DNA of 64,000 nucleotides from Natrarchaeobaculum sulfurireducens (GTDB lineage Archaea; Halobacteriota; Halobacteria; Halobacteriales; Natrialbaceae). The DNA lies in contig NZ_CP024047.1 of NCBI RefSeq assembly GCF_003430825.1, forward strand, positions 806,001-870,000, read 5' to 3'. The translations under genes and the position numbers were made by a program. Below, in pieces: positions 1,983-63,416 of this stretch (positions are counted from its first letter, which is position 1; each line of letters opens with the position of its first letter). The notes beneath the pieces were generated by a model. It worked only from the letters and a program-made list of their open reading frames with translations, had not been told where the DNA came from and did not search any database.

Positions 1983-3422
1983 ATGCAGACGATGACGGCA
2001 GACGACGGTCTCTTGGCCGGCTTTCGATCGCTCGAGGCGGAGGTGACCGACCACCGGCTCCCGACAAGCGGGTCGGTCCCGGAGTGGCTCTCGGGGGCGC
2101 TGATTCGGAACGGGCCGGGCCGGTTCGAAAGCGGCGACGACAGGGTCTCCCACTGGTTCGACGGCCTCGCCATGTTGCGCCGCTACGCGTTCGATGACGG
2201 CACGATCCGGTACACCAACCGATTCCTACGAACCGAGGCGCACGCGGCCGCTCGAGACGGCAGCCTCGAGGGCCAGTTCGGTACCGACGTCGGCTTCGCT
2301 CGCCGACTCGCGGCCTGGGTCCAAGCCCGTGGCCCGCCGACGCCGACCGACAACGCCTCCGTACACGTCGCCCGCCTTGGCGACCACTACGTTGCACTCA
2401 CCGAGGCGCCGCGCCGGGTCGCGTTCGATCCGGTCACGCTCGAGACCCACGGGGAGTTCCGGTGGCGGGACGACCTCCCCGAACACCTCGCGACGGCTCA
2501 CCTTACCGTCGACCCGACCAGCGGGGAGACGATCGGCTACGCCACGACGTTCGGTAGGAACCCCCAGTATCACGTCTACCGGATCGAAAACGGCACCGCG
2601 ACCCGCGAGCTGATCGCCTCGGTTCCCGCGATCGGCCCCGGCTACGTCCACGACTGTTCCGTGACGCCGAACTACGTCGTCCTCGTCGAGACGCCGCTGC
2701 GGATCGCCATCTGGCGTGCGCTTACCCCGTGGGGCGACGACGGGTTACTCGACGCCCTGGTCTACGACCACGATCGACCGGTCCGGTTCGTGGTGATCGA
2801 CCGCGACACCGGCGACCTCGTCGCCGAGCCCCGAACTGACCCGTTCTTTACCTTTCACCACGCGAACGCCTTCGAGGACGACGACACGCTCGTCCTCGAT
2901 CTCGTCGCCTTCCCCGACGGCGACGTCGTCGACGGCCTGACGCTCGAGGCGCTCTCCCAGGACGGGTTCGACGCGGCGCCGGACGGACGACTCCGGCGGT
3001 TCCGGATCGACCCGCACGCGTCTGACGATAGAGTCGTCCGTGAGCAGGCGACGCGCTATCCCGGCGGCCTCGAGTTTCCGACCGTCGCGCCGAGCGCTCG
3101 AAGTCGACCCTACCGGTTCCTCTACGGCCAGACGACCGACCGCCGCGGGGCGAACGGCCTCGTCAAGCTCGACCTCGAGACGGGGACTGCCACCGAGTGG
3201 TGGAAGTCCGGCTGGTACGTCGAAGAGCCGCGATTCGTCCCTCGCCCCGGTGGTGCCGCTGAAGACGACGGGGTCGTCCTCGCAACTGCGATCGACGTCG
3301 AAGCGGCGCAGTCGCTCGTACTCGTCTTCGACGCCGAGACGCTCTCCGAGCGGGCACGGGCGACACTCCCGCACGTCGCTCCGTTCGGCTTTCACGGTCG
3401 GTTCTTCCCCGACGCGGCCTGA
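1983..3422 (+). CDS. carotenoid oxygenase (RPE65/apocarotenoid oxygenase family)
   Basis: 479 residues; non-haem iron dioxygenase that cleaves a carotenoid or apocarotenoid double bond. The four iron-ligand histidines of the family can be placed: HLTVDP (after EHLATA), GYVHDCSV, FTFHHANAF, and the C-terminal GFHGRFFP. The N-terminal LIRNGPGRFE motif is also typical. The frame extends further 5', but the ATG at 1983 is where family similarity begins. Haloarchaea normally make retinal with Brp/Blh, so this enzyme more likely acts on another apocarotenoid or on C50 or C40 breakdown products. It sits among amino-acid and solute genes, not with the crt genes at 17-24 kb. Confidence 0.85.
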   Translation: MQTMTADDGLLAGFRSLEAEVTDHRLPTSGSVPEWLSGALIRNGPGRFESGDDRVSHWFDGLAMLRRYAFDDGTIRYTNRFLRTEAHAAARDGSLEGQFGTDVGFARRLAAWVQARGPPTPTDNASVHVARLGDHYVALTEAPRRVAFDPVTLETHGEFRWRDDLPEHLATAHLTVDPTSGETIGYATTFGRNPQYHVYRIENGTATRELIASVPAIGPGYVHDCSVTPNYVVLVETPLRIAIWRALTPWGDDGLLDALVYDHDRPVRFVVIDRDTGDLVAEPRTDPFFTFHHANAFEDDDTLVLDLVAFPDGDVVDGLTLEALSQDGFDAAPDGRLRRFRIDPHASDDRVVREQATRYPGGLEFPTVAPSARSRPYRFLYGQTTDRRGANGLVKLDLETGTATEWWKSGWYVEEPRFVPRPGGAAEDDGVVLATAIDVEAAQSLVLVFDAETLSERARATLPHVAPFGFHGRFFPDAA

Positions 3423-17209: not shown

Positions 17210-18853
17210 GTGGCGCCGATGGGTAGCCGGAACGACCTCGCAGCGGCGACGCTCGAGACGCTTCCCGTGACGGTAGCCGTCATCGACGATGACGGCGAGA
17301 TCCTCCTGACGAACCGGGCCTGGCGCGAGTTTGGATCGGACGAACAGTCAACCGACCACGTCGGCGTCAACTACGTCGCGACGGCTGTGATGTTCGAAGA
17401 CGACGACGAGTACGCCCGACAGGCAGTCGAGGGCCTCGAGTCCGTGCTCGAGGGCGAACAGGAGACGTTCGTGATGGAGTATCCCTGTCACACGCCCACG
17501 CGTCGGCAGTGGTTCATGATGCGGGCGAACCGGTTTACCGTCGACGACGACGTTCGCGTCTCGGTCGTCCACCTCGAGATCACCGAGCGAAAGCTGGCGG
17601 AACTCGCCGCCGAGGAGTCTGCCGAGCGAATGCGCGACGAACACCGGGCGCTCGAGCACGTTCTAGAGCGAATCGACGGACTCGTCCGCGACGTCACCGA
17701 TGCCGCCGTCGGCGCGGGAACGCGCGAGGAGATCGAACGCCGCGTCTGTTCGCGCCTCGCAGCGACCGAGCCGTACGTCCTCGCGTGGGTCGGTCGGGTC
17801 GACGTGACGAACCAGCGCGTCTCGCCGCGTGAGTGGGCCAGCACCGGCGACGTCCCGCTCGAAGACGGCGACCTCGTTCTCGGTACCGACGAAACCCACC
17901 CAGCCGTGAGAGCGCTCGAGGCCGGCGAACCGTACGTCGTCCAGGATCTCTCGTCGTTTCGCGACGCCGACAACTGGTGGCCAGTCGGGGCCGAATCCGA
18001 CTATCAGTCTGTCGCCGCGTTACCGCTTTCGTACGGTGACGTCACGTACGGCGTCCTCGTGTTGTTCGCGGCCGACGCCGGCGCGTTTTCGGATCGCGAA
18101 CTGCTGGTGCTCGAGTCGCTCGCCGGAACGATCGCGACCGCGATGAACGCGATCGAGAGCCGGCGGATGCTGACGACCGAGTCCGTCGTCGAACTCGAGT
18201 TGGCGATCGAGGACTCGTCGCTGTTCGTGACCGCCCTCGCCGAGGCCCTCGAGGCGACGGTCACCTATCGCGGTCTCGCTTACGACGACGGAACGCCGCT
18301 CGCGTTCTTTTATGTCGATCGAACCGGGGCAGTCACCGAACCGGCAGTCGAACTCGAGGGTGTCGCCGACGCCACGACGCTCGTGACCTACGAGGACGGC
18401 ACGCTGCTCGAACTCGAACTAGTCGACAGTATCGTGACGACGCTCGTCGAACACGGCACCGTCGTTCGGCGGTTCGACGTCACCGACGGCATCGCCGACC
18501 TCGCGCTCGATCTCGCCAACGGCCAGTCCGCCCGATCGGTGTACGACTTACTCGAGCGCCACTACGACCGGGTCGAACTGATCAGCTACCACGAGAGCGA
18601 ACAGCCGACGCGAACCCCACAGGACCTGATCGCGACGCTCGAGCAGACCCTCACGGACCGCCAGCAGATGGCCCTTCAGAAGGCGTACGTGGCCGACTAC
18701 TTCGAGTGGCCTCGAAACGTCTCCGGTGAGGAACTGGCCGAGTCGATGGACATCTCGCGGTCGACGTTCCACCAGCACCTCCGGACGGCCCAGCGAAAGT
18801 TGCTCGAGGAACTGTACGAGGGCGATACGGCGATCGGTCGTCACTCGGAGTGA
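17210..18853 (+). CDS. bat: Bat-type PAS-GAF-HTH transcriptional regulator
   Basis: 547 residues. Order seen: an N-terminal PAS-like domain (VAVIDDDGEILLTNRAW, to about 125), a GAF domain (about 165-325, FSDRELLVLESLAGTIATAM), a bacterioopsin-activator middle domain, and a C-terminal bat-type HTH (ESMDISRSTFHQHLRTAQRKLLEELYEG, about 510-540). Bat of Halobacterium activates bop, brp and crtB1 under low oxygen and light. The gene lies 158 bp upstream of crtB on the same strand, which supports a carotenoid/retinal role. It is shorter than Halobacterium Bat (674 aa). Starts at 17210 and 17219 are both possible. Confidence 0.8.
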   Translation: MAPMGSRNDLAAATLETLPVTVAVIDDDGEILLTNRAWREFGSDEQSTDHVGVNYVATAVMFEDDDEYARQAVEGLESVLEGEQETFVMEYPCHTPTRRQWFMMRANRFTVDDDVRVSVVHLEITERKLAELAAEESAERMRDEHRALEHVLERIDGLVRDVTDAAVGAGTREEIERRVCSRLAATEPYVLAWVGRVDVTNQRVSPREWASTGDVPLEDGDLVLGTDETHPAVRALEAGEPYVVQDLSSFRDADNWWPVGAESDYQSVAALPLSYGDVTYGVLVLFAADAGAFSDRELLVLESLAGTIATAMNAIESRRMLTTESVVELELAIEDSSLFVTALAEALEATVTYRGLAYDDGTPLAFFYVDRTGAVTEPAVELEGVADATTLVTYEDGTLLELELVDSIVTTLVEHGTVVRRFDVTDGIADLALDLANGQSARSVYDLLERHYDRVELISYHESEQPTRTPQDLIATLEQTLTDRQQMALQKAYVADYFEWPRNVSGEELAESMDISRSTFHQHLRTAQRKLLEELYEGDTAIGRHSE

Positions 18854-19011: not shown

Positions 19012-19962
19012 ATGCAACAGGAACACATCGACGCCGGCAAGGAAATTCAGAAGCAGACCGGGAAGACGTTCTACCTCGCGACGCGCTTTCTTCCCAAACG
19101 AGTGCGTCACGCGACGCACGTCCTGTATGGCTTTTTCCGGATCGCCGACGAGGTCGTCGACGACGCTGCGGACGCCCCGCCAGCGACCCAGCGCGCCGAA
19201 CTCGAGTCGCTTCGGGCGCAGGCACTCGGCGAGGTCGACCCCGACGAGCCCGTCCTCGAAGCCTTTCAGGAGCTTCGCGACCGCTACGGGATCGACGACT
19301 CGGAAGTCGAGGAGTTTATCGACGCCATGGCGACCGATATCACGACCAGCCGCTATGAGACGTACGCCGACCTCGAATCGTATATGCGTGGGTCGGCGGC
19401 TGCCGTCGGCGTGATGATGACCGCGATCATGGAACCCGAGATGGAGGAGACGGCTCTCCCCCACGCCATCAAACTCGGTGAGGCGTTCCAGTTGACGAAC
19501 TTCCTGCGGGACGTCCGCGAGGATATCGTCGACCGCGACCGAATCTATCTCCCCCAGGAGACCCTACGGAGCCACGGCGTCTCGAACGAGCAGATCGAAC
19601 GCCTCGAGTACTCGGAGTCGTTCGCTGCGGCGATGGCCGAGGAACTCAAGCGAGCGGAAACGCTTTACCGCGAGGGCGTCGCCGGCATCCGGTACCTTCC
19701 TGAAGACTGCCAACTGCCGGTGTTACTCGCTTCCGTGTTGTACGCCGAACACCACGCGGTGATCCGGGCGAACGAGTACGATGTCCTCACACGAGAGCCG
19801 TCGCTGTCGACGACGCGCAAGCTCTGGTGCCTGGCGAAGACCCGCTGGCACTGGCACTGGAGTCGTGACCCCGAAGCCGTCTTCCAGCGCGTCTCGGCGG
19901 TCCCCACGCTCGAGCCCGACACCCGAGGCCCCGGCCACGGTGGCCGCGTTCCGACGCGCTGA
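19012..19962 (+). CDS. crtB: phytoene synthase
   Basis: 316 residues, head-to-head prenyl synthase. The two Asp-rich motifs are RIADEVVDD (about 44-52) and NFLRDVREDIVDRDRIYLP (about 164-182), with FQLTNFLRD typical of phytoene synthases. It condenses two geranylgeranyl diphosphates to phytoene, the first step to lycopene, bacterioruberin and retinal. It follows bat, with its own promoter (18927-18955), and faces the crtD-lyeJ-cruF operon 1.5 kb away. Confidence 0.93.
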   Translation: MQQEHIDAGKEIQKQTGKTFYLATRFLPKRVRHATHVLYGFFRIADEVVDDAADAPPATQRAELESLRAQALGEVDPDEPVLEAFQELRDRYGIDDSEVEEFIDAMATDITTSRYETYADLESYMRGSAAAVGVMMTAIMEPEMEETALPHAIKLGEAFQLTNFLRDVREDIVDRDRIYLPQETLRSHGVSNEQIERLEYSESFAAAMAEELKRAETLYREGVAGIRYLPEDCQLPVLLASVLYAEHHAVIRANEYDVLTREPSLSTTRKLWCLAKTRWHWHWSRDPEAVFQRVSAVPTLEPDTRGPGHGGRVPTR

Positions 19963-20064
19963 GTTCGTCCCGGCACCCGGTCGATTCAGCCTCGAACGCA
20001 CCGGTAAGCCGATCGAAAGGCGCCGCCGACAGTATATTTATGCCGGTCTACCGTATCGGCTAGT

Positions 20065-20499
20065 ATGAACTCTCACGTTCTCGTTCCGATCGACGACTCC
20101 GAGTGTTCGACGCGAGCGCTCGAGTTCGCCCTCGAGGAGTACCCCGATGCCCGTATTACGGCCATGCACGTCATCGACCCGAGCGACGTCTATCGGGCCA
20201 CCGGCATCGAGAGCGGTTCGATGGCCAACTACGAACAGATCCGCAAGAATCACGAAGCGAACGCCGAAGGGTTACTCGAGTCTGCCCGGCGGACGGCCGA
20301 CGACGCCGGCGTCGAGATCGAGACCGACCACGTCCTCGGGGGTGTCTCCCGGACGATCCTCGAGTACGTCGAGGACCACGACGTCGACCACGTCATCGTC
20401 GGGAGCCACGGTCGAACCGGTGCTGGACGTATCCTCATGGGCAGCGTCGCCGAACGGATCGCCCGGCGCTCGTCGGTGCCGGTGACGATCGTCCGCTGA
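20065..20499 (+). CDS. universal stress protein (UspA family)
   Basis: 144 residues. N-terminal VLVPIDDSECSTRALEFALEE and the C-terminal ATP-binding signature GSHGRTGAGRILMGSVAERIARRS (G-2x-G-9x-G-S type) mark an ATP-binding Usp. Such small Usp proteins are numerous in haloarchaea; the specific signal is unknown. It sits between crtB and cruF and is convergent with cruF. Confidence 0.9.
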   Translation: MNSHVLVPIDDSECSTRALEFALEEYPDARITAMHVIDPSDVYRATGIESGSMANYEQIRKNHEANAEGLLESARRTADDAGVEIETDHVLGGVSRTILEYVEDHDVDHVIVGSHGRTGAGRILMGSVAERIARRSSVPVTIVR

Positions 20500-20515
20500 C
20501 CGGCTCGCTTCTCGT

Positions 20516-21430
20516 TCAGTTCCCGGAACCGTCTCCACCGACTGCCGAGTAGCCGGGCAGCGCCGTCCGGACCATCTCGAGGTCGTATCGGTCCGTGCTG
20601 AACAGGCCCGCACAGAAGAGGCCGGCGACGCCGGCGGCGAGCCAGTTGCCATAGAGGAGGTTGATCATCCCCCACAGGAGCACGAAGCTCACCAGGTCGT
20701 CGAGGACGAACTCACACTCACGGACCCGTTCTAGCAGGTCAGCGCGGTCGAACGCGAGGTCGACGAGCACGACGGCGACGGTGCCGGAAATGACCCAGCC
20801 GACGTAGTTCGAGATGGGCACGCCGTAGAAAACCCCTGGCGGGTCGAACGCCCAGAAGCCGACGGCGACAGCGGCCGGATCGAGAACGACGTCGACGGCA
20901 ACGACGGCGGCGATCGCGACGGGAATCCTGACGATCGCCCGTCGCGTCCACGAGCCGAACACGAGTAGCGTGAGCAGATAGGCGTTCACCACCAGCGGGA
21001 TAAAAAATAGCGGCAGCGCCAGTGGAACCTCGCCCAGCAACATCGGCCCGAGTGAGATTGTGTACTCGAAGGCACCGTATGGCCAGTCGGTTCGCACGCC
21101 GACGATCTCGATCGCATAGGTGTAGGCCGTCAGGGCGCCGAGACAGCCAAGCGCCCACCAACCGATCTTCGGAAGTAAGCCGACGATCAGCGGGGAGCGC
21201 ATCACGAACGTCCCGAAGAGAATCAACAGTGGATTGTACTCGAGCGGCTCCGGGAGCAGCCCCTCGGCGCTCGCAACCAGCGTCACCGCACCGATAAACG
21301 GGAAGACGACGGCGATCGTAAACCGGTTCTCTCTGATTACCCCCTCGAGCCGCCGCTGAAGGCTGGCTCGATCCTCGAGGAGGCTCCCGTTCGACGACTC
21401 TCGCGTTCCGACATCCACGTCCTCATCCAT
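20516..21430 (-). CDS. cruF: bisanhydrobacterioruberin hydratase
   Basis: 304 residues with about seven transmembrane segments and conserved YGAFEYT, LGEVPLALPL and DPPGVFYGVPISNYVGW. It is the carotenoid-hydratase (CruF) of the bacterioruberin pathway, adding water to both ends of bisanhydrobacterioruberin. It is last in the operon crtD-lyeJ-cruF; its start overlaps the 3' end of lyeJ by 8 bp (21423-21430). The order matches characterised haloarchaeal clusters such as Haloarcula japonica. Confidence 0.9.
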   Translation of the reverse strand: MDEDVDVGTRESSNGSLLEDRASLQRRLEGVIRENRFTIAVVFPFIGAVTLVASAEGLLPEPLEYNPLLILFGTFVMRSPLIVGLLPKIGWWALGCLGALTAYTYAIEIVGVRTDWPYGAFEYTISLGPMLLGEVPLALPLFFIPLVVNAYLLTLLVFGSWTRRAIVRIPVAIAAVVAVDVVLDPAAVAVGFWAFDPPGVFYGVPISNYVGWVISGTVAVVLVDLAFDRADLLERVRECEFVLDDLVSFVLLWGMINLLYGNWLAAGVAGLFCAGLFSTDRYDLEMVRTALPGYSAVGGDGSGN

Positions 21431-22283
21431 GCACGATCACCCAAAGGGCACCCAGCGTCAAGATGGTCCCGACGGCGGTATTGATCGCCGGAAACCACCA
21501 GTAGGCCCGATCGACGCCGACGCTCGAGCCGGCGATAATTCCCACGAGCAGCGGGTAGACCGCCATCACCGCACCAAGTCTGACGTCGACCGCACCGAAG
21601 GCGAGCGCGGCCAGGAGCCAGCAACAGCCACAGTAGGCATACGTTCGACGCTCGCCCAGGACGGTTGCCGTCGTCCGGATCCCCGCGTTTCGGTCGGGCT
21701 CGAGGTCGGGGATCGCCGAAAAGGTGTGCATCCCCATCGCCCACAGCCAGCCGCCGACGATCGCGAGGATGGGCGGTTGGCTTCCCGCGACGGCGACGTA
21801 GGCCGCGATGCCTGGGGCGACGTAGAGGCCGTTCGAGACCGAATCGAACAGTGGCGTAGTTTTGAATCGGACCGGCGGCGCGCTGTAGGCCGCTCCCAGG
21901 ACGAGGAAGACGCCGATCCAGACAAGCGCCCCCGTCGGCACGAGGGGGACAAGCGCCAGCGCCAGGGCCGCACAGCCGGCGACGACGACCGGTACCCAGC
22001 GCTGGCCGCCGTATCGTGTCTCTTTCGACGCCTTTTTCGGGTTTTCGACGTCGATCTCCCGGTCGAAGACGTCGTTGATCCCATACAGGAAGACGTTCGC
22101 TGGGAGGAGGAAGTACGCAAACAGGGCTACCGCCGCCGGCGCGAACAGTTCACTCTGGGTTTCGGCAGCGTAAGCGACGCCCACGACGACTGGTCCCGCG
22201 AGATAAAACCAAAACCGCGGCCTCGAGAGCACCACGAGGTACTGGAGCCGGTCGATGACACCGTCGTTCGTCGCCACCGTCAT
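21423..22283 (-). CDS. lyeJ: lycopene elongase / 1,2-hydratase (UbiA family)
   Basis: 286 residues, a UbiA-type membrane prenyltransferase with about nine helices. The first Asp-rich site is NDVFDREIDVENPKK (about 74-88), the second is around IPDLEPDRNAG. It adds C5 units to lycopene to build C50 carotenoids. The start at 22283 overlaps the crtD stop as ATGA-type coupling (22280-22283), so the three genes are translationally coupled. Confidence 0.9.
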   Translation of the reverse strand: MTVATNDGVIDRLQYLVVLSRPRFWFYLAGPVVVGVAYAAETQSELFAPAAVALFAYFLLPANVFLYGINDVFDREIDVENPKKASKETRYGGQRWVPVVVAGCAALALALVPLVPTGALVWIGVFLVLGAAYSAPPVRFKTTPLFDSVSNGLYVAPGIAAYVAVAGSQPPILAIVGGWLWAMGMHTFSAIPDLEPDRNAGIRTTATVLGERRTYAYCGCCWLLAALAFGAVDVRLGAVMAVYPLLVGIIAGSSVGVDRAYWWFPAINTAVGTILTLGALWVIVHG

Positions 22284-23761
22284 CCGTGGTCTTCGACGAG
22301 CTTTTCTGCGGTCAGTTGGCCGCTGATGAGACACATTGGCATCCCGATCCCGGGCGTCGTGTCACCGCCGACGAAGTAGAGTCCATCGACTTCTTTCGAC
22401 CGGTGTGGCGGCCGGAACAGCGCCGTCTGGCGCAACGTGTGCGCTAGCCCGAGTGCGGTCCCCTGGTAGCTGTTGTACCGACTGGCGAAGTCCTCGACGC
22501 AGAACCGCTCTTCGAGGACGATTCGCTCGCGAAGGTCCTCGCCGGTGTGGTCGGCCAGGTCCTCGAGTACCAGGTCGCGGTACTCCTCGCGGCGTTCGGG
22601 GGTGTCCTCGAGGCCGGGTGCGATCGGAACGAGGACGAACAGGGCGCTGTGGCCTTCGGGGGCGACATCGTCGTCCGTTTCGGAGGAGACACAGACGTAG
22701 TAGGCTGGGTCGTCCGGCCACTGTGGGTCGTCGAATATCTGTTCGAAGTGGTCGTCCCAGTCGGTCGGGAGCACGAGCGTGTGGTGGGCCAGTTCGGGAA
22801 CGTCACCCTCGACGCCGAGGTAGAGCAAGAACGCGGAGGGGGCGTACGTCCGCTTCTCCCAGTAGTCGGCGTCGTAGCCGCGGCGTTCGGGTGCGAGGAG
22901 CTCCTGTTCGGTGTGGGCGTAATCGGCGTTGCTGACCACCAGGTCCGGGCGCAGGGGACCGTCGGGCGTCTCGAGCAAGAACGCCCCCTCGCGACCCTTG
23001 ATCGCGCTGACGGGGCGATCCGTCTCGTACTCGACGCCGAGTTCCGAGCCGAGTTCAACGATGCCGTCGACGACGCTGCCGATCCCACCCTCGGGGTACC
23101 AGACGCCGAGGTTGAAGTCGACGTGGCTCATCAGGTTGTACAGCGCCGGCGTGTTTTTGGGCGAGCCACCCAGGAAGACCAGCGTGTACTGCATGATCTG
23201 CTGGAGCTTCGGGTGTTCGAAGTAGTCCTCGACGTGCCCCTGCATCGACCCCAGCAACGAGAGCCCGCGGGCCTGGCGGGCGACGTCGAGGGTCATGTAG
23301 TCGCGAAGTCGGGAGCGGTCCTCGTAGACGAAGTGTTCCATCCCTACTTCGTAGTTCTCGCGGGACTTCTCGAGGTAGCGCTCTAACGTCTCGCCAGCGC
23401 CCGCTTCGTACTCCTCGAAGATCTCTTTGGTCCGCTCGAGGTCGGGCGTGACATCCACCCGGTCGTCGTCCTTGAAGAAGATTCGATAGTGGGGGTCGAG
23501 ATGCGTGAGTTCGTAATAGTCACTCGGCGTTCGGTCGAAGTGACCGAAAAACCGCTCGAAGACATCAGGCATCAGATACCACGACGGCCCCATGTCGAAC
23601 CGAAAGCCATCGCGCGCCAGGCGGCTGGCTCGACCGCCGAGCTGTTCGTTCTTCTCAACGACAGTAACGTCCGCCCCTGCGTCGGCGAGATAGCAGGCCG
23701 TCGAGAGTCCACCAATTCCGCCACCGATCACGACGACCGACTCGCCGGCCAGCGATTGCAT
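22280..23761 (-). CDS. crtD: carotenoid 3,4-desaturase, phytoene-desaturase family
   Basis: 493 residues, FAD-dependent amine-oxidase/CrtI fold. The N-terminal dinucleotide site is VVVIGGGIGGLSTACYLADAG, and the C-terminal substrate and FAD motif is GLYFVGGDTTPGIGMPMCLISG. Its place as first gene before lyeJ and cruF identifies it as CrtD, which introduces the 3,4 double bonds in the C50 pathway; a phytoene desaturase (CrtI) role cannot be fully excluded. TTTAT at about 23787-23791 (minus strand) may be its TATA box. Confidence 0.87.
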   Translation of the reverse strand: MQSLAGESVVVIGGGIGGLSTACYLADAGADVTVVEKNEQLGGRASRLARDGFRFDMGPSWYLMPDVFERFFGHFDRTPSDYYELTHLDPHYRIFFKDDDRVDVTPDLERTKEIFEEYEAGAGETLERYLEKSRENYEVGMEHFVYEDRSRLRDYMTLDVARQARGLSLLGSMQGHVEDYFEHPKLQQIMQYTLVFLGGSPKNTPALYNLMSHVDFNLGVWYPEGGIGSVVDGIVELGSELGVEYETDRPVSAIKGREGAFLLETPDGPLRPDLVVSNADYAHTEQELLAPERRGYDADYWEKRTYAPSAFLLYLGVEGDVPELAHHTLVLPTDWDDHFEQIFDDPQWPDDPAYYVCVSSETDDDVAPEGHSALFVLVPIAPGLEDTPERREEYRDLVLEDLADHTGEDLRERIVLEERFCVEDFASRYNSYQGTALGLAHTLRQTALFRPPHRSKEVDGLYFVGGDTTPGIGMPMCLISGQLTAEKLVEDHG

Positions 23762-55082: not shown

Positions 55083-55919
55083 TCACTGTTCGCTCGCCTC
55101 GAGGACTTCGCGGTCCCGAATCCAGGCGTCGGCGCCGAACTTTCGCTCGGCGAGGTCGGCCGCAGCCTCGAGTTCGGCCGCACGCCACGTCCCATCCTCG
55201 GCGTCACACCACTCACCGAGTGCCGTCGCCAGGGTCTCGACTGCCTCCTCGCGATCGATCCCGGCCTGCTCACGAATGCTCGTGACGCGGTCGGTGAACG
55301 TCTCTCCATCGGTGTCGGTCTCGAAGACACCGAGGTGAGCCTCGGGTTCGAGATCGTAACTAATCGAGCCGTGCTGGATGACGACGTCACGCTGGCGGTA
55401 CTGGGCGTTGCCGCTGATTTTCTGTGCCGCTTCGCCCGCGTTCGCGGGGGCGACGACGTCGTGGGCAGGGTTGATGTCCCGAAGGTAACACGACGGCTGG
55501 TAGATCGAGTCCTGTTCGACCGCCGCGAAGTCGGCGTCGACGCCCATCCGCTGGAGCCCCTCGAGCACCGGTTCACAGAACAGGTCGTAACAGTCCATCA
55601 GGTTCCCCGGGACCTCGTCGGCGGGCGCGACGATCGTATACGAGATGTCGCCGTATCGGTCGTGGTAGATCCCACCGCCGCCGGTCTGGCGTCGGGTAAC
55701 GTCGATTCCCTCGCGATCACAGACCTCCCAGTCGACCGTCTCGGCGTCCTGTCGATACCCCAGCGAGAGCGTACTCGGCTCCCAGGCGTACACTCGCACC
55801 GTCCGCAGGCCGTCCTCGAGGGCCGTCTCGGCGGCGACCTCCTCGAGTGCCATCTGAGTGGCTCCATCACGTGCGTCATCGACGATGAGTCGCCACGCTT
55901 CGCCCGCGAGTTCGGTCAT
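55083..55919 (-). CDS. lplA: lipoate-protein ligase A-like protein
   Basis: 278 residues from the ATG at 55919 (a start at 55931 is also possible). It has LSLGYRQDAETVDWEVCDREGIDVTRRQTGGGGIYHD in its key parts (LSLGYRQDA, TRRQTGGGGIYHDRYGDI), and the catalytic Lys in AQKISGNAQYRQRDVVIQHGSI is marked by KISGNAQ. It attaches lipoate or octanoate to E2 subunits and GcvH. Haloarchaea often have several family members, and the acyl donor is unknown. Confidence 0.87.
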   Translation of the reverse strand: MTELAGEAWRLIVDDARDGATQMALEEVAAETALEDGLRTVRVYAWEPSTLSLGYRQDAETVDWEVCDREGIDVTRRQTGGGGIYHDRYGDISYTIVAPADEVPGNLMDCYDLFCEPVLEGLQRMGVDADFAAVEQDSIYQPSCYLRDINPAHDVVAPANAGEAAQKISGNAQYRQRDVVIQHGSISYDLEPEAHLGVFETDTDGETFTDRVTSIREQAGIDREEAVETLATALGEWCDAEDGTWRAAELEAAADLAERKFGADAWIRDREVLEASEQ

Positions 55920-56296
55920 AGACTGGTCCATGCTGTCGGCGAGCAAAGTGGTTCCGGTATCACGCGTCGATGCCGCTGGCCAGCCACACTGATCTATCAA
56001 GTTCGTCCCGCCTCGAGAGAATTCTCCCTATTTGTTTTGTGAGTTTCTGCGCGGCAACAAGTGTTTTACTGTCGCACTAGAAATCAGTTCTCGAAGACAC
56101 AACTGTGACCGCCGCCGACGAACGCCGTCGGGGCACTGACTCACATGTACGTCAAACTCAATCAGCTAACCGATCATCGCCGTAGACGTATCGTATCCGA
56201 GGACTGCTCCAGGTGGGGGCCTTCGTTCGCCAGGAGCGAACAGCTACCCGGTACACTCGACGCGGCCGCTTCTCTCACGGTCGGGGGTGTCGGCCG

Positions 56297-57040
56297 GTGA
56301 TCGAGCATTCGACCCTCTTTGGTTTCTCGAGTGCGCTCATTGGCTTGATGGCTCTCGTATTTTTGCTCTGGACTATCAGATTGCCATCGCAGCTTCGTGC
56401 GTACGGAGCCGCCGTTGTCGTCGCCTGTGGTGCTATGAGCGGGGCCTACCTGTTCATGGCTGCTGATGTGTTGACCGTCGCGACGACGGGTCGAGAGGAA
56501 TCCGTCGCACGGTTTTTCGGCTACACGGTCGGGTGGGCTGCTGTCTGTGCAGTTGTCGGGGCTGTCACTGACGCAGACCGCCGCTACGTCGTCGGGTTAC
56601 TCGCATTCATCCTCGGGTGTCTCTGGGGGACCTTTGTGAGCTGGATCGTCGGCGGCATCGCCGGGACCGTGGTTTCGGTGGCGATTTTTGCGTCCCTGAT
56701 CGCCATGATCTACATCCTGATAGGTCCACTTACACGGTCGGCACAGACCGTCAGTGGCGACCGCCAACTGCTCTACGCGAAGACCCGAAACCTCGTAATT
56801 CTGGTCTTCGGCGGCCTCATACTCACGGGGATCGTCTCCGAACAGAACCTCGGATTGACCGACGCGTTCGTCGGCCAACTGGTCGCGACGTACCTCGATC
56901 TGATCTGGCTCGCCGGCTTCGGCGGCCTAGTCTTTCGCTACCAGGACGCGCTCGAGGACGCAGGAGTGCCGTCGCTGGTCGCGACGCTTCGTGGTTCGGA
57001 CTCGAGTCGCCTGGAGTCGGATCTCGACGCATCACCCTGA
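56297..57040 (+). CDS. microbial-rhodopsin homologue without the retinal lysine
   Basis: 247 residues from a GTG at 56297, about the size of bacteriorhodopsin (248 mature). Seven hydrophobic helices are visible. Two stretches align to bacteriorhodopsin (recalled sequence) without gaps: from R72 (bR R82) to the loop motif DAD (bR 102-104), and from RN at 164-165 (bR R175-N176) to the end of helix G. In helix G, LDLIWLAGFG replaces LDVSAKVGFG: bR Asp212 is kept (D201), but the Schiff-base Lys216 is Leu205. Asp85 is Gly75 and Asp96 is Val86, and Trp182, Pro186 and Trp189 are lost. It cannot bind retinal covalently or pump protons in the known way. Function unknown. Confidence 0.72.
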   Translation: MIEHSTLFGFSSALIGLMALVFLLWTIRLPSQLRAYGAAVVVACGAMSGAYLFMAADVLTVATTGREESVARFFGYTVGWAAVCAVVGAVTDADRRYVVGLLAFILGCLWGTFVSWIVGGIAGTVVSVAIFASLIAMIYILIGPLTRSAQTVSGDRQLLYAKTRNLVILVFGGLILTGIVSEQNLGLTDAFVGQLVATYLDLIWLAGFGGLVFRYQDALEDAGVPSLVATLRGSDSSRLESDLDASP

Positions 57041-57256
57041 CGGATTCGTTTCTGAGTGCTGTTTTCGACAGCCCTTGTCGTTGGACGTGCTCACAGCACA
57101 GTATCCGCACGACCGCTGAGACAGCGTTTTCGGGTCGCTGCGCCGTCAGTTCGACCACCGGTAGACGGTGTAGTGGTCCATATCACAGAACGCCCCGGAG
57201 TTCCGCCTCGAGGCGATCTGCCGATGGCGAGAGTGGTGAGAATGTGCTTGACCTCC

Positions 57257-57733
57257 TCCCGCGCCTGAAGACGCGGGAATCCGCGAAGCGGAGTTCAAGG
57301 TTGCGCGTTTCCTCGGTGGCGAAGTACGCTTTCGCGTCCCACGTCGACGGTCGCCGTCCAGTTGTGACCAAGGACGTGCGTTGCAGCGCGTCTAGCCCGG
57401 CCAAACGGGCCTTCCGTCCGACACTCGGTCGGCGTTTCGACGCGACGAATACCGCTCGTCGCTCCACGGCGGGGTATTCAGCCCGTACGGTACCACGATT
57501 CGCGTCACCCGAAGTCTGGCGGAATCGAAGATTCCGCTGCCCTCGCGGAACTGGGTTCCGCTTAGTGTTACGTCGTGGACTGGTTCGATCGGATTTGTTA
57601 CCACGTGAGAAGTTACGGCGAAGCCGTAGTGCCGTCGAAGACGGCATTTCTCAACGTGGGAACTCCGGTACTGCCGTTTACGGGATACAGCCCAATCAAG
57701 CTTACGCGCGTATCCACGGCCTTCAGGCCGTGG
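57257..57733. mobile_element. IS200/IS605-like hairpin ends, element without transposase
   Basis: Two perfect hairpins: CCCGCG-CCTGAAGA-CGCGGG (57258-57277, extended by one T-A pair), preceded by TTGACCTCCT, and CCACGGCC-TTCA-GGCCGTGG (57714-57733). Such subterminal hairpins are typical of IS200/IS605 or IS1341 elements in haloarchaea. The 440 bp between them code for nothing recognisable, so it may be a MITE-like deletion derivative. A tnpB remnant follows at 57904. Confidence 0.45.
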
Positions 57734-57903
57734 CATTGCGCTGCTCCGCCTGTAATGTGATCGTGAATATGCCAGAGGTCCTCCGTCTGCTCTTCAAGAG
57801 AGGAGATGATCTCGTCTCGTGGAGTAGGTGAGACTGCAGTTGTCATCACTCTCATCATCAATCAGATTGCGTCTACCGGGCAGTTTCAGCACGTGCCCGC
57901 GAG

Positions 57904-58212
57904 TGACTCCCTGTCAGGTGTTCAAAATATAGGTGCTGGAACGCGGACTACAACATCCTGATACGCGGACTGAAGCAAGTAGGGACGGGCTGTCCCGAAT
58001 CGACGTCCTCAGAATCCGTCGGTTCTGATAGGCTGCGAAAGAAGCCCCATCTGCTCACGGACGGAAAGCGCCCGTTCGCATTGTCGGTGAGTCCGGTGGT
58101 CTCACGCTACCTAAAGGAGCGAACGGCGCAAGCCATGACCGAGTGGGGTGGTGTGGAAGTCACTGACGCCAGTGGTCAAGGTCTTGGTGTGATTGGGGAA
58201 GATTTTGGCTAA
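57904..58212 (+). pseudogene. TnpB (IS1341-type) C-terminal remnant
   Basis: An open frame ending at 58212 reads RCSKYRCWNADYNILIRGLKQVGTG-type sequence followed by CPEST, then SVSPVVSRYLKERTAQAMTEWGG. The ADYN...IRGL...G.PEST pattern is the C-terminal zinc-finger/RuvC end of TnpB proteins. No N-terminal part or start is present. Only one knuckle of the zinc finger remains. It is a decayed transposon end next to the RNR cassette. Confidence 0.55.
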
Positions 58213-58540
58213 GTCGAGCAATAGGCTACCAGGGGCGGATTTGAGAAATTCAACATGACATGTCGTTTCGGAACCAATCGAACAGAATTAAAATGCCGTT
58301 AACGCTGTAGTTAGGTTAGGGTTTTGATTCAGTCTAACGTATTGGTGTGCCAATGTGTTGGTAAAGCGAGAGCTCACTATCGGTGCCTATCGTTGATGCA
58401 AAAGAAGTGAGTTCAAGTAAATTTGTTCTAGTGCAACTGAATTGCATATCTTTATTAGTCTCCCTAAGATAGCACATGTTACAGTTGCGTCCTCTGGCAC
58501 CACACAGACAGATGGTTTGACGAGAGCACCACATCGACAC

Positions 58541-62507: not shown

Positions 62508-63416
62508 ATGGTGCGGAACGTCGCCGGAACGCTCCCGGAACTCGAAGACGAGGACTTCTATCTCCTTTCGGGGATCGAACAGGGGATGCGCTTTTCGGAG
62601 TGGGTCCAGCGCGAGAAGCTCCCGAAGTTCACCGGCCTCACCGACGAAGAGGTGACGTATCGACTCGAGCGCTGTCTCAAACGCGGCCTGGTCGAGAAAA
62701 AGACCATTCAGTACGAAGGCTACACCCTCCAGTTCGAGGGCTACGATCTGCTCGCATTGCGCGCACTCGTCGAGCGCGATACCATCTCGGAGTTCGGTTC
62801 GCCGCTCGGAGTCGGCAAGGAAAGCGACGTCTACGAGGTCAAATCCTACAAGCCGCTGGCCCTGAAGTACCACCGCGAGGGCTACACCAACTTCCGGGAG
62901 GTCCACAAGGAACGAGATTACACATCCGACAACCGCCACGTCTCCTGGATGTACACGGCCCGGAAGGCGGCCGAACGCGAATACGAGATCCTCGAGTCGC
63001 TGTTTCCCGACGTCTCGGTCCCGCGCCCGATCGACCAGAACCGCCATGCCATCGTTATGGAGAAGATGGACGGCGTCGAACTCTCGCGGGTCAAACTCAC
63101 GGACGGGCAGGTGCTGGGCGTGCTCGATCTGTTACTCTCCGAACTCACGCGTGCTCACGACGCGGGATACGTCCACGCGGACATGAGCGAGTACAACGTC
63201 TTCGTCGGCGAGGACGGCGTGACGATCTTCGACTGGCCACAGGCCGTCCCGACTGACCACGAAAACGCCGCGGAGTTCCTGGCTCGCGACGTCGAGAACC
63301 TCCTCGGCTACTTCCGTCGGAAGTATCCACGGAAAGTCCCGGAGGACGTCTCGAGTGGGGACCTCGCGACGTCGATCGCCGACGGGTCGTTCGAGAGTGT
63401 GGCGAACGTCGTCTAG
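62508..63416 (+). CDS. rio2: RIO2 serine/threonine protein kinase
   Basis: 302 residues. An N-terminal winged helix (EDEDFYLLSGIEQGMRFSEWV ... KRGLVEKKTIQYEGY in parts) precedes the RIO kinase domain: GVGKESDVYEV (phosphate loop), ALKYHREGYTNF, HADMSEYNVFV (catalytic Asp and Asn) and IFDWPQAVP (metal Asp). The winged helix distinguishes RIO2 from RIO1. RIO2 acts in 18S/16S rRNA maturation of the small ribosomal subunit. The start at 62508 is chosen at the first conserved residues. Confidence 0.93.
   Translation: MVRNVAGTLPELEDEDFYLLSGIEQGMRFSEWVQREKLPKFTGLTDEEVTYRLERCLKRGLVEKKTIQYEGYTLQFEGYDLLALRALVERDTISEFGSPLGVGKESDVYEVKSYKPLALKYHREGYTNFREVHKERDYTSDNRHVSWMYTARKAAEREYEILESLFPDVSVPRPIDQNRHAIVMEKMDGVELSRVKLTDGQVLGVLDLLLSELTRAHDAGYVHADMSEYNVFVGEDGVTIFDWPQAVPTDHENAAEFLARDVENLLGYFRRKYPRKVPEDVSSGDLATSIADGSFESVANVV

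Follow-up and report, generated by a model that had tools for sequence, protein, structure and literature searches.

We show here that a gene in a 64,000-nucleotide stretch of DNA (the window) from a salt-loving archaeon is an intact, selectively maintained relative of the light-sensing rhodopsins which lacks the site of retinal attachment, and we propose that its product probably serves as a non-photosensory receptor subunit that signals through an HtrII-type transducer, possibly in trans. The protein (Table 1) belongs to a class that was already known, being a group B haloarchaeal opsin-related protein (ORP) as defined by Becker et al., 2016 (PMC4915679): that paper describes the ORP class, a group B with Leu at position 216, a link to HAMP/MCP genes, and expression and retinal-binding assays of two ORPs, neither of which bound retinal. 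The novelty implied by the original prediction thus falls away. The protein itself is a new member of the class, and our analysis adds the co-conservation on the transducer side, a larger census, and the situation of orphan transducers and ORPs without an adjacent transducer.

Table 1. Features of the ORP gene and its conserved neighbour (window coordinates).
Feature	Position	Strand	Basis and remarks
ORP (opsin-related protein), group B, 247 aa, GTG start	56297..57040	+	ORF, Pfam, AF2/Foldseek, dN/dS
Helix C, aa 71-91	56507..56569	+	R72, G75, Y76, W80, V86; alignments, model DSSP
Helix G, aa 190-214	56864..56938	+	Most conserved helix of the clade; Y199, D201, W204, L205
Y199 codon	56891..56893	+	Corresponds to the NpSRII residue with a hydrogen bond to HtrII N74; Y in 104/104 ORPs
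L205 codon, where bR has its Schiff-base lysine for retinal, K216	56909..56911	+	Leu in 14/14 of the clade
Lipoate-protein-ligase-family gene	55083..55931	-	Pfam, synteny; neighbours the ORP in Halobiforma-type genomes too; listed for context

First, sequence and predicted structure both place the protein among the microbial rhodopsins, as had been claimed from the DNA alone. The window ORP scores 25.3 bits against the Pfam Bac_rhodopsin model (cut-off 24.6), the same model is matched by each of the 14 proteins in its clade (best E 1.4e-7), and phmmer returns NpSRII as the nearest solved sequence (E 4.7e-5, residues 12-213); by its sequence the protein is a distant member of the Bac_rhodopsin family. 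In NCBIfam no rhodopsin or ORP family exceeded its cut-off. A scan of genome contigs with the single protein found nothing, and a scan with a profile named 11 relatives. The AlphaFold2 model (pLDDT 85.5, pTM 0.81) comprises seven helices and a BC hairpin as read by DSSP, and in Foldseek it is matched best by structures of SRII (prob 1.00), the SRII/HtrII complex among them, with TM values of 0.78-0.80 by query and, for most SRII entries, 0.84-0.90 by target. The model superposes on SRII, in agreement with the earlier claim that the rhodopsin fold is kept.

Second, the retinal site has been lost. The numbering of the window ORP coincides with that of NpSRII in helices C to G, and a comparison with bacteriorhodopsin (bR) bears out, position by position, what the original prediction had listed as kept and as gone. 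R82 (here R72) and D212 (D201) are retained, as are the 'DAD' at 92-94 and the 'RN' at 164-165. In helix C, D85 is replaced by G75, W86 by Y76, T90 by W80 and D96 by V86, and further along the chain W182 has become F171, Y185 L174, P186 I175, W189 G178 and K216 L205, so that the proton-pump set of D85, D96 and K216 is lost altogether and the aromatic pocket formed by W76, W171, Y174 and W178 is not kept. At all eight pocket positions checked (W76, T80, P81, W171, Y174, P175, W178 and K205) the window ORP differs from each of the 10 canonical controls, carrying Y, W, A, F, L, I, G and L, respectively. Lys at position 205 is found in 10/10 canonical controls and in none of the 104 ORPs of our census, which usually carry Arg or a hydrophobic residue there, and every one of the 14 clade members has Leu. 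The conclusion that this protein cannot bind retinal covalently is therefore supported, L205 having replaced the Schiff-base lysine, and no Lys-bearing homologue in the clade points to a mere local mutation. Moreover, Trp80 and Trp204, invariant in the 14-member clade, occupy positions that hold small residues in canonical opsins and thus probably fill the retinal channel.

These substitutions weigh on the idea that the protein is a photoreceptor of another kind, one that would hold its chromophore, be it retinal, a carotenoid or some other, with no Schiff base. We regard this as improbable, given the eight altered pocket positions, the two tryptophans that would fill the retinal space and the finding that two other ORPs supplied with retinal gave no 480-580 nm peak (PMC4915679), although genes for forming retinal (two brp/blh genes next to canonical opsins) and a set for bacterioruberin are present in the genome, and aminated retinal analogues, as cited in the same paper, can work in mutants lacking the lysine. 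Linkage to carotenoid genes is not conserved, which likewise counts against a bound chromophore. The ORP and a lyeJ-type carotenoid gene are separated by ~34 kb here, by 6 kb in a congener, by 51 kb and 282 kb, respectively, in two genomes of Halobiforma type and by ~1.9 Mb in one of Natrialba type, and in Natronorubrum halalkaliphilum the two lie on different contigs; these variable distances rule out a functional linkage of the ORP to the carotenoid and bat genes of the window. The bat and carotenoid genes to which attention had been drawn are really present, but the weight placed on them is not supported. They comprise a BAT/HTH_10 regulator (17219-18853) and a bacterioruberin set (19012-23761) of phytoene synthase, CruF, a LyeJ-type UbiA prenyltransferase and CrtID. 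The window also encodes an RPE65-family carotenoid oxygenase (1983-3422, plus strand), the host having two brp/blh-type genes elsewhere, and a 905-residue protein with seven HVO_2922-type repeats (NF041908; 25182-27899, plus strand). Loss of the lysine as a consequence of lost retinal biosynthesis is ruled out for this genome, which keeps canonical opsins and its two brp/blh genes.

Third, the gene is under purifying selection. The reading frame is intact and open over its full length, the congener orthologue has ATG at the same residue as the GTG start, and dN/dS between the two is 0.18 (bootstrap 0.13-0.27), which together with the invariance of Leu205 in the clade rules out a pseudogene or a local K216L mutation. 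That the gene is a decaying paralogue on its way to becoming a pseudogene could be argued from the third ORP of the same genome, which is a deletion remnant, and from a Pfam score barely above the cut-off; the full-length frame, the low dN/dS, the invariant helix G residues and the conservation of the locus in another genus make this highly improbable, and it is already disfavoured. The locus is syntenic in Halobiforma-type genomes (L041, L060), which share a lipoate ligase, an AP endonuclease and a methyltransferase on one flank, and at L060 the other flank holds a counterpart of the window gene at 62508. In one of these genomes two ORPs stand in tandem at the syntenic locus, with no transducer. 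We found no plasmid-borne ORP copies. Downstream of the ORP, a simple codon-usage caller predicted no gene over ~1.4 kb (57041-58440).

To place the protein within its class, we searched 391 Halobacteria genomes with the window ORP as query (P0001; E 1e-12 or better) and obtained matches in 81 of them. The gene surroundings were read for 104 ORPs. A HAMP-MCP transducer gene lies upstream on the same strand and overlaps or abuts the ORP in 67 cases and lies within 500 bp in 8 more; 75 of the 104 thus stand beside such a transducer and 29 have none adjacent. Similarly, 17 of 32 group B ORPs have been reported with an adjacent HAMP/MCP transducer and 15 of 32 as unlinked (PMC4915679), so that the transducer is not obligatory and does not define the group. 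No MCP or transducer gene was found near the window ORP, which is hence what we call a soloist. Phylogenetically, the 104 ORPs form one clade apart from 11 canonical opsins (support 100/100), which shows a common ORP ancestry; the link to the sequences of Becker et al., 2016 is made through genomes of Natrialba and Halobiforma nitratireducens represented in the clade, and not by accession. Six soloists, the window ORP among them, are sister to eight transducer-linked ORPs from Natrialba and Natronorubrum halalkaliphilum (support 100/99), and across the tree the adjacent-transducer state changed at least nine times.

Several of these neighbourhoods have features of their own. In several Natrialba and Natronorubrum clusters the gene order is ORP-transducer-ORP, and the clusters L056, L058, L059 and L061-L065 of these genera abut a convergent second, apparently soluble transducer, which at L056 carries a protoglobin (HemAT-like) domain by Pfam and whose counterparts elsewhere are alike by sequence; these second transducers hint at an oxygen or redox taxis island. 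In addition, the ORPs of L089-L110 (genera g9, g42 and g5) make up a separate clade that has Arg at the K216 position and keeps the D85 equivalent (or Glu), and their transducers have a large insert (~200 residues) separating TM1 from TM2, with H or N at the site discussed below.

Fourth, our alignments indicate that the ORP systems, the window ORP and the ORP-type transducer of its own genome included, keep both partners of a bond known from the sensory rhodopsin complex. The crystal structure of SRII/HtrII shows two specific bonds, Tyr199-Asn74 and Thr189-Glu43/Ser62, and HtrII is bound even by bR and HR once these have been given the T189 and Y199 equivalents (PMC3274258). Tyr199 is present in every ORP of the census, a receptor-side feature that Becker et al. 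had already noted (PMC4915679), and the linked transducers match NpHtrII (PDB 5jjj_B) over TM1-TM2-HAMP (E 3.8e-27), with Asn74 of NpHtrII aligning to Asn without a gap within TM2. Among the 71 linked transducers whose second TM helix was aligned, the N74 site holds N in 55, H in 15 and S in 1, that is, N or H in 70 of 71, and it holds N in 3/3 orphan transducers of other genomes. Both sides of the first SRII-HtrII bond are therefore kept. Within the genome of the window, only the ORP-type transducer and one SR-type transducer have N at this site, seven other HAMP transducers being without it. Moreover, ORPs are present in every one of the 26 genomes that have an ORP-type transducer, compared with 81 of 391 overall, a co-occurrence that is partly circular because most ORP-transducer pairs are adjacent. 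At the second contact, D189 is invariant in the linked sister clade and variable among the soloists, the window copy keeping D; this variation allows some relaxation of the contact and counts mildly against the receptor-transducer reading that we favour. The main text of Becker et al. contains no mention of N74, HemAT, pseudogenes or orphan transducers (PMC4915679).

The window ORP could find its transducer elsewhere in the genome, which contains three canonical opsins, the window ORP, a second ORP (C3:2844485; 43% identical to the window ORP) and the remnant of a third. Two of the canonical opsins adjoin MCP transducers, and the third, which the tree groups with the pump-type opsins, has a brp/blh gene nearby. 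There is one ORP-type transducer (G000 C3 ~3404.2-3405.6 kb; 62% over the TM-HAMP region), an intact HAMP-MCP gene, and directly downstream of it lies the ORP remnant (L036:5735-5990, minus strand; G000 C3 ~3403.7-3404.0 kb), which covers helices F-G only and contains stop codons. In the congener G003 the place of the remnant is taken by an ORP that overlaps the transducer gene (L040), both genes being intact, and the congener G002 (a Natrialbaceae MAG) has the ORP-type transducer and no recognisable ORP. Between G000 and G002, which both lack its ORP, the orphan transducer evolves with a dN/dS of 0.13 (0.08-0.20), a value to which divergence from before the ORP loss may contribute if the two losses were separate events. 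Two genomes of Halobiforma type (G332, G016) also have such orphan transducers, and soloist ORPs are present in all four orphan-transducer genomes (G000, G002, G016 and G332), an association that involves few genomes and is not statistically significant. These observations suggest that soloist ORPs can drive orphaned transducers in trans. Counting against our favoured explanation are the lack of a transducer adjoining the window ORP and the case of Halobiforma nitratireducens, in whose 85% complete draft genome we found three soloists and no full-length ORP-type transducer.

A soloist ORP might instead modulate an opsin or ORP paralogue as a hetero-oligomer, or act on another membrane protein, with no chemotaxis signalling; a modulating role has been proposed for the bacterial Rh-noK beside proteorhodopsin (PMC10308929). 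The 29 ORPs without an adjacent transducer, the repeated changes of this state on the tree, the flanking of one transducer by two ORPs in Natrialba clusters, the tandem pair of the Halobiforma-type genome and the relaxed D189 of the soloists would all fit; however, Y199 and helix G remain highly conserved in soloist ORPs, and the window ORP is not beside a canonical opsin gene, the three of its genome lying ~300-400 kb away, and we consider this role rather unlikely. A structural or chaperone-like function in the membrane is decidedly improbable. It would have a parallel in the yeast opsins without the lysine, which reportedly influence the H+-ATPase and pH homeostasis and for which a chaperone role has been suggested (PMC7714340), and Becker et al. 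mention some unlinked ORPs near stress genes, but the same source treats the fungal ORPs as a separate lineage (PMC4915679) and the conserved surface of the haloarchaeal ORPs is the one used between SRII and HtrII.

With the other group B ORPs, its nearest named relatives being those of Natrialba, Natronorubrum and Halobiforma nitratireducens, the window ORP shares the Bac_rhodopsin fold, a hydrophobic residue at K216, a single clade apart from canonical opsins, the retained Y51, R72, D189 and Y199, and the pocket losses F127 to S/T (S127 here), Y174L and W178G; it differs in having no adjacent transducer, in a genome that has lost its one transducer-linked ORP. SRII/HtrII of Natronomonas pharaonis offers the best structural match and the Y199 contact residue, and the transducers of related ORPs have its TM1-TM2-HAMP layout and N74, whereas the window ORP lacks the retinal lysine, the W76/Y174/T204 set and D75, is not light-driven by known means and has no transducer beside its gene. 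From bR, with which it shares the overall fold and the R82 and D212 equivalents, it differs by the loss of K216, D85 and D96, and pumping is not possible in the known way. Bacterial Rh-noK, the FArhodopsins (PMC10308929) and fungal ORPs likewise combine a rhodopsin fold with loss of the lysine or of the retinal pocket, but they are separate lineages in other gene neighbourhoods, the FArhodopsin cluster being without transducer genes (PMC10308929).

Finally, we propose how such a receptor may work. A group B ORP would be a sensor subunit of seven helices that descends from the sensory rhodopsins and has given up the use of retinal. A stimulus other than light, such as a small ligand that enters from the outside or an altered state of the membrane, of ions or of redox balance, would shift helices F and G, and through physical binding this shift would pass via a contact of the Tyr199-Asn74 type to the second TM helix of a HAMP-MCP transducer, which would then hand the signal to the chemotaxis system. 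The likeliest partner of the window ORP would be the single ORP-type transducer of its genome, whose own ORP has been deleted and which is itself intact and under selection. The original prediction had rightly left a receptor role open; the functional link, which could not be seen from the DNA alone, is with HAMP-MCP chemotaxis transducers. More tentatively, soloist ORPs may be interchangeable non-photosensory 7TM input modules, and ORP-less transducers may be kept by selection and driven by them in trans. The co-conservation of Tyr199 and Asn/His74, together with two intact soloists and exactly one orphaned ORP-type transducer in one genome, makes a simple genetic and biochemical test possible. 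Since the description of the ORPs in 2016 the question has stood whether prokaryotes use the rhodopsin fold more generally as a receptor for stimuli other than light, and if the more tentative reading is true, haloarchaea would carry a small combinatorial, GPCR-like set of chemoreceptors built on the rhodopsin fold.
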